From: Thermococcus radiotolerans
GTDB lineage: Archaea > Methanobacteriota_B > Thermococci > Thermococcales > Thermococcaceae
Length of the DNA stretch: 64,000 nucleotides
Reading direction: 5' to 3'
NCBI RefSeq assembly: GCF_002214565.1
Contig: NZ_CP015106.1
Coordinates: forward strand, 1,054,001-1,118,000
Of the stretch, positions 16,799 to 45,550 are shown in pieces (the first letter of the stretch is position 1; each line of letters begins with the position of its first letter). A program made the position numbers and the translations under genes. Under the pieces are notes generated by a model. The model was not told the origin of the DNA and made no database searches. It was given only the letters and a program-made list of their open reading frames with translations.

Positions 16799-16819
16799 TC
16801 CCCGGAAGTTACTTCTGCG

Positions 16820-17359
16820 ATGATGAGTGAATCCAATACTGACCGGATGATGAACCCCGAACCTGAGCATCGGATTGAAAACGAAAGGCGAACTGGAATG
16901 GAGAAACGTCTCGAAGAGCTGTACTCCAGCATTGAAGAGTTGAAAAGAGAGAACGAGATGAGAAAAGCCCCGGACAAGCTCGGATGGGACGACATAGCCC
17001 AGGAGATAGTCGGGGCGGTCACCTTCGCCCTCCCCTTCCTGTTCACAGCGGAACTCTGGGAGATAGCGAAGGACATCTCCATTGAACGTTCAATCGCGGT
17101 ACTCTTCATGACCCTTGGCATTGCGTACCTGTTCATAGCCAAATCTCGGATAGGGAACCTGAAGAGGGAGGAACTCTTCCACATCCCCAAGCGACTCCTA
17201 ACCGTCACGGGAATAGCGTACTTAATCTCGGCCGTTCTGATATACGTGTACGGAATCAACAACCTGGCCGACTTCACCCTCGGTCAGTACATCAACGCGA
17301 CCATACTTATAAGCACCTTCGCGGTGATAGGTGCCATAACCGTTGACATGGTGAAGTGA
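16820..17359 (+). CDS. DUF2391 family integral membrane protein
   Basis: The product has 179 residues. The N-terminal third is charged and probably coiled-coil (MEKRLEELYSSIEELKRENEMR). Four or more hydrophobic helices follow, beginning with GWDDIAQEIVGAVTFALPFLFTAELWEIAKD, the stretch I associate with DUF2391. Function unknown. Placement of TATA 27 bp before ATG 16820 and no ribosome binding site suggest a leaderless mRNA. The stop codon touches the ATG of the DUF3226 TOPRIM gene, so the two are translated from one transcript. Confidence 0.75.
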   Translation: MMSESNTDRMMNPEPEHRIENERRTGMEKRLEELYSSIEELKRENEMRKAPDKLGWDDIAQEIVGAVTFALPFLFTAELWEIAKDISIERSIAVLFMTLGIAYLFIAKSRIGNLKREELFHIPKRLLTVTGIAYLISAVLIYVYGINNLADFTLGQYINATILISTFAVIGAITVDMVK

Positions 17360-37864: not shown

Positions 37865-37942
37865 TGGCGCCCGGGTCGGGATTTGAACCCGAGTCACGGG
37901 AGTGACAGTCCCGTATGATGGGCCTGGCTACACCACCCGGGC
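37865..37942 (-). tRNA. tRNA-Asp (GUC)
   Basis: On the minus strand the gene reads GCCCGGG...CCCGGGCGCCA, with a 7-bp acceptor stem and an encoded CCA. The anticodon stem-loop CGGGA-CUGUCAC-UCCCG gives anticodon GUC. The T arm is CUCGG-GUUCAAAU-CCCG-like. It lies just 6-7 bp after the 5S rRNA on the same strand, the usual 5S-tRNA-Asp unit of Thermococcales, and should be processed from the same transcript. Confidence 0.97.
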
Positions 37943-37948
37943 GTTTGA

Positions 37949-38072
37949 GTGGCCGGCGGCGTCCCCGGCTTCCCGCCCCCTCCCGGAGGGCAGTACAACC
38001 GGGATCGCTGGCGGGCTTAACTTCCGGGGTCGAAACGAGACCGGGTGTGACCCCGCCGCTATGACCGCCGTA
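37949..38072 (-). rRNA. 5S ribosomal RNA
   Basis: On the minus strand the sequence starts TACGGCGGTCATAGCGG, contains CCCGGAAGTTAAGCCCGCC and ends GACGCCGCCGGCCAC. This is nearly identical to the Pyrococcus 5S rRNA as I remember it. The terminal helix CGGCGG/CCGCCG pairs. The exact 3' end is uncertain by 1-3 nt. No 16S or 23S gene is nearby. tRNA-Asp follows directly. Confidence 0.95.
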
Positions 38073-38096: not shown

Positions 38097-38104
38097 TTTA
38101 TAAA
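38097..38104. promoter_or_regulatory. Palindromic TATA box shared by 5S rRNA and the MCM-like gene
   Basis: TTTATAAA is self-complementary. It is centred 28 bp from the 5S 5' end (38072) on one side and about 27 bp from the ATG codons at 38126/38129 on the other, so a single element may drive both directions. Confidence 0.55.
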
Positions 38105-38128
38105 TCTTGCGGTCGATGAGGGTGGATG

Positions 38129-39640
38129 ATGGAGGGCGAGATACTGGAACTGCTGAGGCTGGAGAGGATGAGGGAGCCGCTCAGCCCAGGAAGGCGGCTC
38201 AGGGAATTTCAGATGAAGATCCAGCGGCTCAAAAACGGGGACGAGATCGAGGTAGCCGGCTTTCTGCTGGGCAGGAAGCCTCCCAATGCACCTGCCGACG
38301 CCGCCTACTACCTGCTGTCCCCACTCTCCCCCTCGGAGCTGTCGTCCCTGCGCAGGGGGGACTTCCGCACGTATCTGGTTATCCGGGCGACTGAAAGGAC
38401 CGAGTTCTCCGGGAGGGTAAAACCCGGGAGCTACGTGCTCGTGAGGGGAATCATCGACGCATATCCCTGGGGAAACCTCCGGATGGTCAGCGCGGCAAGG
38501 ATCGAGGGGAGGGACTACTCGGAGTACTGGAAGGACTACCGCGAGTTCGCGTTGAGCAGACGGGAGGTTCTCGACCTCTTCGAGAGGACGGTTTACCTGC
38601 GCGACGACATGAGGAAGGCCCTCATCTACTCGATATACGGCGTTCCGTACATACCGGGCGAGGAGTGGGGCGAGGGATTCGAGTTCACGGTGTTCAAATA
38701 CCGGGAGGATTCCGGACTTCTCGCACTCTGGAAGGCCCTCAAGTACTTCCACTCAAGCCTTCCCTGGGAGGTTCGTCTCACCAGGAAAAGGGTCCTCGAA
38801 GTGGACGACCCGTTGCTCGGTTTGGATTTCCGGCTTGGGAACCCGAACGGAAGCGACATGAGGTACTACACTCCGCCGACAAAGAGGGGTACCATCAGCC
38901 TACCCAAGTGGGTCACCGAAAGGATACTGAGCAAGCGGGCGATTGGCCTGCTCCCCAAAAACGTCGAAGCGGATCCCCTCGACAGGATGGCAAGGATGTC
39001 CGAGACGCCGTTCGTGCTCGTACCCTCGGAGGAAAAGCCCTACTTCGAGGAGAACCGGGAGTTCCTCCAGCTCATACCCAACCTCCTCGTCACGATATTC
39101 ATCCAGAGGGAAAGGTTGGGCTCCCTCGACAGGAAAAAGACCCGCGCGGTTGAGGAGGAGTTTCTGAGGTGGCTCAGGGAGTCAAGGGAGGACTATGGAG
39201 ACCCATTCAGGGCTCTAACCGCCCCCAGCGGGCCGATGAACATCCGGCTTAGGGCGGAGCTGGGCAAGCGAGTCTTCGGCTCGATAGTTCGGTTCAACGG
39301 GAGGGTTACCAAGAGGGCCGCCAGGGAGGTCAAGCTGATAAACGAGGCCATAGTGAACGACTGGATGGTCGTTCTCAAGGACCATCCCTCGGAGATGATA
39401 AAGCTCCTGAGGGAATACCAGATGTATGTCCCAGGAACGCTCAAGGCCCGGCGGGCTCTGGAGATACTGCACGACCTAGCATCAGTGAGCCCTTCAAACG
39501 AGGTAACGAGGGAGGACTTCATCCGGGAACTGGTGAGGGACGGGTTCTCGGGGGAGGATGCCGCGGAGCTTCTTGAAAGGTTTATAGCCGCCGGATACGT
39601 ATACGAACCGTTCCCGGGGAAACTAAGGCTGATAGGGTGA
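38129..39640 (+). CDS. OB-fold/winged-helix protein resembling a degenerate MCM
   Basis: The 503-residue product has an OB-like N-terminal domain (about 38-130: GDEIEVAGFLLG, KPGSYVLVRGIIDAYPWGN). A stretch LFERTVYLRDDMRKALIYSIYGVP at 150-173 resembles the MCM segment IYGHEDIKxALxxxLFGG. The C-terminal winged helix (about 455-503) ends FIAAGYVYEPFPGKLRLI, like MCM C-termini. No Walker A or B motif is seen, so it should not hydrolyse ATP. A DNA-binding role is inferred. GGGTGG precedes tandem ATGs (38126, 38129). Four bp separate it from the RNase P gene. Confidence 0.7.
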   Translation: MEGEILELLRLERMREPLSPGRRLREFQMKIQRLKNGDEIEVAGFLLGRKPPNAPADAAYYLLSPLSPSELSSLRRGDFRTYLVIRATERTEFSGRVKPGSYVLVRGIIDAYPWGNLRMVSAARIEGRDYSEYWKDYREFALSRREVLDLFERTVYLRDDMRKALIYSIYGVPYIPGEEWGEGFEFTVFKYREDSGLLALWKALKYFHSSLPWEVRLTRKRVLEVDDPLLGLDFRLGNPNGSDMRYYTPPTKRGTISLPKWVTERILSKRAIGLLPKNVEADPLDRMARMSETPFVLVPSEEKPYFEENREFLQLIPNLLVTIFIQRERLGSLDRKKTRAVEEEFLRWLRESREDYGDPFRALTAPSGPMNIRLRAELGKRVFGSIVRFNGRVTKRAAREVKLINEAIVNDWMVVLKDHPSEMIKLLREYQMYVPGTLKARRALEILHDLASVSPSNEVTREDFIRELVRDGFSGEDAAELLERFIAAGYVYEPFPGKLRLIG

Positions 39641-39644
39641 TGTC

Positions 39645-40007
39645 ATGTCCAAGAAGTTCATCCGCCAGAAGGAGCAGAGGGAAAAGCGCAGGATCGCCCG
39701 CGAGAGGGTAAACGTCCTCTTTACGCTCGCGGAGAGGGTTTTTCCCTACGAACGCGAGCTGGCCAACCGCTACGTTGAGATAGCCCTCGCGGTTCAGCAG
39801 AAGGCTAGAATAAGAATGCCGAGAAAGTGGAAGCGCCGCTACTGCAAGCGCTGCCATTCCTTCCTCGTCCCTGGTGTTAACGCCAGGGTGAGGCTCAGGA
39901 ACGGCCACGTTGTCATCAAGTGCCTCAACTGCGGTCACATCATGAGGTACCCGTACATCAGGGAACAAAAGGAGAAGAGAAGGCAAAGGACTGATTCAAG
40001 CCCCTGA
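39645..40007 (+). CDS. rnp4: Ribonuclease P protein component 4 (Rpp21/Rpr2)
   Basis: The 120-residue product has two N-terminal helices (MSKKFIRQKEQREKRRIARERV...FPYERELANRYVEIALAVQQKARI), followed by the basic RMPRKWKRRYCKRC and a zinc ribbon (CKRC...CLNC). These define the archaeal Rpr2/Rpp21 subunit. It pairs with Rpp29 on the specificity side of RNase P RNA and aids tRNA 5' processing. GGTGATGTC precedes the ATG. It is 4 bp behind the MCM-like gene. Confidence 0.95.
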   Translation: MSKKFIRQKEQREKRRIARERVNVLFTLAERVFPYERELANRYVEIALAVQQKARIRMPRKWKRRYCKRCHSFLVPGVNARVRLRNGHVVIKCLNCGHIMRYPYIREQKEKRRQRTDSSP

Positions 40008-42201: not shown

Positions 42202-42657
42202 ATGAACTTCGAACCCTTCAAACTCGTTCCCGTCGGCTACGTGAGGAAGAACGGAGAGACCTTCATCGAGATCCTCCCAGAGTTCAGCGATGCGATCCAC
42301 GGTCTCAACGAGGGGGACTGGATAAAGCTGATCCTCTGGTTCCATGAGAGCGACAGGCAGAAGAGAAGAGGGGTTCTCAAAGTGCACCCGCGCGGGAACC
42401 TGGAGAACCCGCTCAGGGGAGTCTTTGCCACCCGTTCGCCCATCAGACCGAACCCTATAGCGCTCTACACCGTTAGGATACACCGCATAGAAAAGGGGAG
42501 GCTCTACATAGACGAGATCGATGCCTTTGACGGCACGCCGGTTGTCGACATCAAGCCTTTTGTGGAGAGGCTTGACTGCCCGAAGGAGGCCAGACTTTGG
42601 GAGAGTATGCTTTACACAACGCCAAAAGCTGGTCTCAGAAGACGTGAAGGGCGCTAG
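42202..42657 (+). CDS. TrmO-type tRNA (t6A37 N6) methyltransferase
   Basis: The 151-residue product has the UPF0066/TrmO beta-barrel pattern: [37 protein letters not shown], and the signature [21 protein letters not shown], which binds SAM. The bacterial enzyme methylates N6 of t6A37 in tRNA-Thr; the archaeal target is inferred. It follows ahcY, which removes the by-product SAH. GGTGGTGGCA precedes ATG 42202. The 3' end overlaps wtpC by 23 bp. Confidence 0.88.
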
Positions 42658-43669
42658 CCTTGAAGCTGACGTAGACCTCCCGTCCCTTCGTTATCCCCAT
42701 CTCCAGCATCGAGGAGCGGGTTATGAACGCCCTCAGATACAGGCCACCGATTCTCAGATGAACCCTGACGAGTGGGCCGAGTTCTTCAACCGACTCGACC
42801 AGGGCTTTGAACTCGTTCCTCGCGGACGTTCTAATGGGCCCCAAAGAGAGGATTATGTCCTCGGGCCTCAGGCCAACGCGAACCCTTCCCCGCGCCTCCG
42901 CCGGAAGCTCTATCTCGACGCCGTTGCTCCTCAGGATCCTTCCCTCCGCGGTGCCCTCTATGATGTTCTCGAAGCCGAGGAACCGCGCGACTTCTTCACT
43001 AGATGGTCTCGAAAAGACGTCCCGAACGGAGCCGGTCTGGACGAGCCTCCCATCGAGCATAACGCCCACCCTGTCGCCCAGGCTCACCGCCTCCTCGAAG
43101 GAGTGGGTAACGTGCAGCGCGGTGAAGCCGAGCTCCCGCTTCCAGTGCTTCATTTCGCCCAGAAGCTTCGCCCTGGTTTGGACGTCGAGGTTCGCGAAGG
43201 GCTCGTCCATGAGCAGAAGCTCGGGCTCCACAACTAGAGCTCTTGCTATGGCCACGCGCTGGCTCTCTCCGCCGCTCAGGGTTTTTGGCTTTCTGTGGAG
43301 GAGGTGGGCTATTCCCAGAACCCCGGCTATTTCCTTAACTTTCCTCTCGATTTCCGCCCTCGGAACCCTACGGAGCTTAAGCCCGAAGGCTATGTTGTCG
43401 AAGACGCTCATGTGGGGGAAGAGGGCGTAGTTCTGGGGAATGTATGCAAGACCGCGCATCTCCGGCGGCCAGTGGGTTATGTCCTCACCGTTGAGGAGGA
43501 CCCTCCCGGCGTCGGGTTCGATTATGCCCGCTATTATCTCAAGGAGCACCGTCTTCCCGGCCCCGCTCGGGCCGAGGATTATGAAGTGCTCCCCCTCGCT
43601 CACATCAAAGCTTATCTCCCTCAGCCGGAACTCCTTCCAGTCCTTGGAAACGGACTTTACCTCAAGCAT
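42635..43669 (-). CDS. wtpC: Tungstate/molybdate ABC transporter, ATP-binding protein
   Basis: The 344-residue product has Walker [11 protein letters not shown]-loop [14 protein letters not shown], signature [15 protein letters not shown], Walker [13 protein letters not shown], switch VTHSFEEAV, and a C-terminal TOBE/MOP-like domain ([38 protein letters not shown]). It energises WtpB. Tungsten is needed for the aldehyde:ferredoxin oxidoreductases of Thermococcales. It overlaps wtpB by 8 bp. Confidence 0.93.
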
Positions 43670-44414
43670 TGGCCTTCCTCCCCACGAGCCAGCGCAGGAT
43701 AACGAAAACGGTGAGGCTCATCACGATGAGGATAACGGAAATCGGTCTCGATGCCCTCAGGCCGTAGTTGTTGAAGTACTCCATGACGAGAACCTGGGCC
43801 GTCTTCGGGTAGTACGCGACGATGAGTATCGCACCCACCTCGCTTATAGCGCGAGCCCACGTCATTATGGCCCCGCTCGCTATGGCCGGAAACGCCATCG
43901 GGAGTGCCACGGAGAAGAACGCCCTCAGGCGTGAGGCACCGAGGGTTCTGGCAACGTGCTCCAGCCCCTCGTCAACGGCAAGAAAACCATCGCGCGCGGC
44001 GTTTATCGCGAACGGTGCGGAGACGAAGAGCATCGCCGCTATTATGCCCGTGTAGCTATCGAGAATTGCGCTCGAAAAGGTAACGAGGAGCATTATTCCG
44101 ACGACTGAGTGCGGGATGACGATGGGAACATCAACCAGGGCCTGGACGAGGCTTTTCCCCGGAAACTCTTTCCTCGCGAGAACGTAGCCGAGGGGGACGC
44201 CGAAGAGGAGAGCTATGAGAGCTGTCGCCGTCGCTGTAAGGAGGGAGTTCCTGAGGGCCTCGATAACGTAGGCGTCGTGAAGGGCCCTGAGCAGCATGTC
44301 GAAGTCTGAGGCCTGCTTGGCCAGTATGACCAGCAGGGGCAGGGCTATGTAAACCACCAAGAAGCTCCCGATTGCGGCGAAAAAGTAGAGCGTGTAGTCG
44401 TGCCTCGTCCCCAT
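43662..44414 (-). CDS. wtpB: Tungstate/molybdate ABC transporter, permease
   Basis: The 250-residue product starts [16 protein letters not shown], preceded by GGGGATCGCC. It has six membrane helices and the EAA loop [27 protein letters not shown] that contacts the ATPase. The N-terminal 14 residues of the longer reading are excluded because the preferred start has the better ribosome binding site. It lies 38 bp downstream of wtpA and overlaps wtpC. Confidence 0.92.
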
Positions 44415-44452
44415 GGCGATCCCCATAGAGTTGGAAAGAGGAAATAAAAACC

Positions 44453-45550
<1,098 letters not shown>

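Follow-up and report, generated by a model that had tools for sequence, protein, structure and literature searches.

The 64,000-nucleotide stretch of Thermococcus radiotolerans DNA analysed here (the window) carries an ORF whose product had been likened, by eye, to the helicase MCM without its Walker motifs. The locus raises two questions: whether this protein descends from MCM, and what it could do if it does. The features considered are collected in Table 1. An ATG at 38126 offers an alternative start for the ORF. An AT box was present at -45 to -18 in 65 of the 77 family loci with 60 bp of upstream sequence. The rnp4 gene was found directly downstream of the family gene in 75 of 78 loci, the exceptions being three genomes of genera g2 and g6, and in the window the two genes probably share one transcript. 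A divergent 5S rRNA gene was seen beside the family gene in the window and in several other scanned loci. In 15 of the 78 fetched loci the contig ended less than 200 bp upstream of the family gene, probably because the divergent 5S gene, presumably repeated in the genome, breaks draft assemblies. Elsewhere in the window there are a C/D box small RNA, sR46 (16816-16868, + strand, 64.4 bits), and an ABC importer (42635-45541, - strand) with ATPase, permease and lipoprotein-like binding protein encoded consecutively, by eye of the tungstate/molybdate type.

Table 1. The MCM-like ORF, its parts and its neighbours (positions in the window; residues of the MCM-like protein)
Feature	Position	Strand	Basis
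ORF of the degenerate MCM-like protein, 503 aa	38129..39640	+	ATG 38129 to TGA 39640, uninterrupted frame
TATA-like box TTTATAAAT, ~28 nt 5' of the start codon of the MCM-like ORF	38097..38105	+	sequence
OB-like domain without MCM zinc module, residues ~38-130	38240..38518	+	PF01336 in 10/36; hhalign 93-129 to MCM 213-255; CxxC 0/79; low-confidence strands
Two helices at MCM AAA entry, residues 142-173, with segment LRDDMRKALIYSIYGVP	38552..38647	+	hhalign 149-215 to MCM 286-351
Residues 180-215, aligned with MCM beta1, Walker A and alpha1; P-loop residues all lost	38666..38773	+	hhalign register; Walker A 0/79
Family-specific middle, residues 219-430	38783..39418	+	no detectable relative
Tentative equivalent of MCM lid (sensor 2), residues 375-394	39251..39310	+	aligned to MCM R557-T579 in full-length hhalign alignment only
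MCM-type winged helix, residues 441-502	39449..39634	+	hhalign prob 96-98; PF21120; archaeal MCM winged helices Z 10.1-10.3
rnp4 (Rpr2/RPP21 subunit of RNase P), starts 4 nt past the stop of the MCM-like ORF	39645..40007	+	PF04032 E 2.2e-20, NCBIfam equivalog
5S rRNA gene, divergent from the MCM-like ORF	37951..38072	-	Rfam RF00001, 84.1 bits
tRNA-Asp (gtc), downstream of 5S gene	37865..37942	-	ARAGORN, Rfam

Homologues were found in 79 of 94 Thermococcales genomes (66 of the 74 more complete ones), usually as one copy per genome, and a wider search of 115 genomes added no full-length relatives outside Thermococcales. The resulting 79-row alignment includes three apparent duplicates (window = L003, L001 = L009, L002 = L011). 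In eight pairs of family members dN/dS was 0.07-0.17, indicating purifying selection and therefore a functional protein. The family evolves much faster than MCM: in six of seven genome pairs its members were 40-63% identical versus 78-93% for MCM, and in the closest pair 80% versus 94%. The family was absent from the complete same-genus genome G034 and from most genomes of genus g3, where only two of nine had it. G034 and six of the g3 genomes without the family kept rnp4, and upstream of rnp4 in these seven genomes no remnant of the family gene rose above noise among the matches listed.

The scarcity of the family in genus g3, taken with origin-less replication in Thermococcus kodakarensis, suggested a link to origin-independent replication. 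This was rejected, since genome G004, which we take to be P. abyssi, carries the gene, yet P. abyssi has one origin. The single origin is stated in the accessible part of PMC3984812, and replication of Thermococcus kodakarensis without Cdc6 or an origin in that of PMC5663688. A plasmid of Thermococcus nautili, 103 kb in size, encodes a relative with 29% identity. An uncharacterised ORF of 436 residues lies upstream of its gene and overlaps it; downstream come an ORF resembling a zinc finger and then a MinD/ParA-type gene, and together these genes (L144 6593-9868) are possibly a plasmid replication or partition cluster. A viral origin of the family was also rejected, as no relative was found in viral contigs or phage records apart from one chance match. 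In this match residues 152-207 were aligned with N4-like phage RNA polymerase 2 (E 0.008-0.009 in seven Erwinia phage records; E 1.3 in the PDB). The aligned stretch lies at a helix with YG at its end, which resembles the polymerase O helix. Kinship with single-subunit RNA polymerases was dismissed because the residues in question are variable among family members.

Nearly all of the significance of the similarity to MCM sits at the C-terminus, for which a winged helix like those of MCMs had been predicted. The final 62 residues gave an hhalign probability of 96.1 against MCM (P 3e-9), and the family winged helix gave 97.9-98.3 against the isolated MCM domain. The Pfam model PF21120 (MCM_WH_arc) was matched by 11 of 36 family members (best E 5.8e-4) and the MCM model, the most frequent NCBIfam match, by seven of the 36 (best E 0.0018). 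Of seven PDB matches the top three were MCMs (E 0.013, 0.09 and 0.17). When the family profile was run against the 115 genomes in six frames, the second match, after the family itself, was typically MCM, with E values down to ~3e-8. Outside Thermococcales 15 of 21 genomes had a match at E <= 0.001, in all 15 in the MCM gene, as assigned by eye from the coordinates of the matches and of the MCM genes; the other six had none at this threshold. Two matches of the family profile (G050, G055) fell on frames of 270 residues, as long as Rpa2. The hhalign, PF21120 and 115-genome results thus bear out the predicted likeness. The predicted winged helix also superposed on archaeal MCM winged helices (Z 10.1-10.3, 21-23% identity), and for residues 431-503 the winged helices of Nse1/Nse3 and MukBEF tied with MCM (Z 10.2-10.4 versus 10.1-10.3). 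The winged-helix fold alone does not pick out MCM; the sequence does.

Similarity was also detected upstream of this domain. With the winged helix removed (residues 1-425 against MCM 1-605), hhalign aligned residues 76-218 with MCM 178-354 (probability 29.9, score 38.9), and the maximum in 150 column shuffles plus 150 reversed-block shuffles was 26.1. A more diverse MCM profile (63 rows) gave the same register. Taken alone, segment 93-129 found the end of the MCM OB domain (213-255, P 0.0025-0.0038) and segment 149-215 the entry helices and Walker A region (286-351, P 0.011-0.018). The latter is the register that had been proposed when LRDDMRKALIYSIYGVP was compared with an MCM helix: residues 146-218 alone match best at MCM 286-351, at a P of only 0.011. 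Y167 in this region is invariant in the family and P173 nearly so. For the OB-like N-terminus, PF01336 was found at E <= 1 in 10 of the 36 members (best 7.9e-4); the window protein itself, at E 0.0089, fell short of the gathering cut-off. An AlphaFold2 model of residues 1-150 (mean pLDDT 54.3) had its strands in OB order. Foldseek returned nothing below E 0.9 for residues 1-150, and VIA-align gave Z values of 3.4 or less, its weak matches being mostly OB folds, including MCM2, MCM4, MCM10 and BrxL chains. These sub-threshold matches and the low-confidence strand order point weakly to the OB-like domain that had been predicted. Judged from the alignments, a relationship to MCM is also supported for the last part of the OB domain and the beginning of the AAA module, in MCM order, more weakly than that of the winged helix and beyond the shuffled controls.

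Over the full length the hhalign score against MCM was 62.3, compared with at most 29.9 for 200 shuffled or block-reversed MCM profiles, and the probability was 91.8-93.9 over 380-428 columns. When 17 real ORF-cluster profiles from the fetched loci, one of them the family itself, were used as targets, MCM scored 65.7 and the other 15 no more than 20.9; for the part before the winged helix the values were 31.8 and at most 21.1. The resemblance first judged by eye thus holds up in profile-profile comparison. No similarity to MCM was detected for segments 219-300, 301-365 and 366-432 (hhalign P 0.13-0.61), and PF00493, the MCM AAA core, was not among the Pfam matches (E <= 1) of any of the 36 members. 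R375, L378, G384, R388 and G391 are conserved in the tentative lid, for which hhalign gave no equivalent when its segment was used alone. The AlphaFold2 model of the whole protein, built from a three-row alignment, had a mean pLDDT of 40.9, and only the blocks at ~441-480 averaged above 70; its first Foldseek match was human MCM5 (E 0.046, TM-score 0.11), which was not counted as evidence. The AlphaFold2 models were of too low quality to decide for or against an AAA core in 140-430.

As predicted, Walker A was absent, and no Walker B stood at a fixed place. GxxxxGK[ST] occurred in none of the 79 rows, and the MCM-type motif (GDPGxAKS type) in none of the 79 versus all 34 MCM controls. A Walker B-like hhhDE string was present in seven rows at three unrelated positions, and is not conserved. 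The SRF arginine finger (SRFD) was found in no family row versus 32 of 34 MCMs, and CxxC, expected of zinc-binding cysteines in the OB insertion, in none of the 79. REDSGLLALWKALKYF is the sequence that aligns with the P-loop. Since the catalytic motifs are lost, neither a helicase nor an MCM-type ATPase is expected; and as five of the MCM features tested (Walker A, a Walker B at a fixed place, the SRF finger, the zinc cysteines and a match to PF00493) were lacking, the protein cannot be filed as MCM. MCM-derived or MCM-like degenerate protein is the most fitting name. The original prediction of a degenerate MCM relative thus stands for the winged helix, the OB end and AAA start in MCM order and the missing catalytic motifs, and falls short in the middle, residues 219-430, where no similarity was detected.

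Other origins of the protein have to be weighed against descent from MCM. That the ORF is spurious or decayed, as the lack of an NCBIfam annotation and Pfam matches that stay sub-threshold could suggest, can practically be dismissed in view of full-length homologues across most Thermococcales genomes and the low dN/dS. A mosaic, with only the winged helix taken from MCM and the OB and middle regions of other origin, agrees with the concentration of significance in the winged helix and with a middle that shows no similarity and leaves PF00493 unmatched. It is nevertheless improbable: the score of 38.9 obtained without the winged helix exceeds all 300 nulls, segments 76-145 and 146-218 each find the colinear MCM register independently, and the spacing of the anchors is similar (~222-225 versus 267 residues, counted from alignment coordinates). 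Another candidate is an RPA32-like protein in which a long insertion has been added to an OB and a winged helix in this order. It is suggested by archaeal Rpa2, which also has an OB and a winged helix that ends in IYEPxxG; the P. abyssi Rpa2 winged helix gave Z 8.9, and the family winged helix matched Rpa2 with a probability of 91. However, the winged helix scored 65.2 against MCM and 35.7 against Rpa2, a comparison somewhat tilted towards MCM by the narrow Rpa2 profile (Neff 1.6), and the part before it 38.8 against 19.4 with the same narrow profile, which makes a derivation from RPA32 very improbable.

As to function, we tentatively prefer an MCM-derived, ATPase-dead accessory protein acting on replication, a reading whose chance we put a little short of even. 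The protein would descend from MCM and would have kept a shortened, zinc-less OB domain, the AAA entry helices and the C-terminal winged helix; with the P-loop, Walker B and arginine finger gone, it would not hydrolyse ATP in the manner of a helicase. The middle (219-430) may descend from the AAA core. The OB domain would bind single strands, the winged helix would dock on DNA or on a replication partner, and the accessory may modulate how the true MCM is loaded, assembled or removed. MCM makes its DNA and subunit contacts through the OB domain, entry helices and winged helix, and this reading is preferred mainly because these are the parts conserved in the family. Fast evolution relative to MCM counts against a constant helicase subunit, and the partnership with rnp4, an RNase P and not a replication gene, against a role in replication. 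Absence of the family from G034 and most g3 genomes, a middle unlike MCM and the missing PF00493 match also speak against the preferred reading. An MCM pull-down study in P. abyssi names XPD as the MCM partner and, in its accessible part, does not mention a protein like this one; if G004 is P. abyssi, that species has the gene, and this is weak negative evidence against an MCM accessory. A more specific version, an independent MCMBP-like protein of Thermococcales in which a dead MCM binds MCM monomers or opened rings and controls how the helicase is assembled or unloaded, is unlikely. An MCM-derived DNA- or RNA-binding factor without a helicase role, serving for instance tRNA or 5S rRNA processing or regulation of the rnp4 operon, is possible but doubtful. 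RNA is also among the ligands of OB and winged-helix domains, and the rnp4 neighbourhood, the divergent 5S rRNA gene, the faster evolution and the loss in some genomes are all in its favour. On the other hand, the family occurs without downstream rnp4 in the three g2/g6 genomes, rnp4 is kept where the family is missing, the plasmid homologue adjoins a MinD/ParA-like gene and not RNase P genes, and no RNA-protein family exceeded the cut-off in Pfam or NCBIfam.

In the usual view archaeal MCM is a homohexamer that suffices by itself, and a widespread motorless relative would be a candidate assembly or unloading factor outside eukaryotes; if a role in RNase P or tRNA function proved true, an MCM scaffold would have been re-used for RNA. 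Thermococcales are genetically tractable, and T. kodakarensis carries the family gene if genome G024 is T. kodakarensis. No description of the family, or of TK0030-TK0034 (estimated T. kodakarensis numbering), was found in the accessible literature, a search that left out most subscription papers. PMC3307487 and PMC3984812 discuss additional copies of MCM in T. kodakarensis and Methanococcales, and also archaeal relatives of RecJ/Cdc45 that are inactivated, a reviewer of the former paper attributing the additional copies to viral integration; the accessible parts of both papers contain no mention of an inactivated MCM in Thermococcales.

With archaeal MCM the family has in common the winged helix, the OB end, the AAA entry helices and the order of these parts. 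The family protein is shorter (~500 versus 684 residues), leaving no room for helical domain A, lacks the zinc cysteines, Walker A, Walker B and the SRF finger, and evolves much faster. The MCM gene of the same genome lies outside the window (L033 703-2757) and encodes 684 residues without interruption. For many Thermococcales MCM genes the match to the MCM model is broken into pieces spread over frames of 1000-2700 residues, a pattern that inteins would produce. Like the family, MkaMCM2 of Methanopyrus kandleri (PDB 3F8T) is a divergent archaeal MCM homologue, and we take it to be inactive. It is drawn with subdomains A, B and C and an AAA+ domain in the accessible part of PMC4619765, whereas the family has no zinc module or recognisable AAA core. 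Eukaryotic MCMBP, with which the original prediction had drawn a parallel, is described as an MCM-like protein without Walker A in the accessible part of PMC9018068. The family shares this lack, its own MCM likeness being shown at its ends; MCMBP was absent from the Pfam matches (E <= 1) of the 36 members, and the two would be expected to have arisen independently. Archaeal Rpa2 (RPA32) has an OB domain, to which the OB-like region of the family would correspond, and shares with it a winged helix ending in YEPxxG, but at ~270 residues it has no middle region, and its match to the family, measured with a narrow Rpa2 profile, is clearly weaker than that of MCM.
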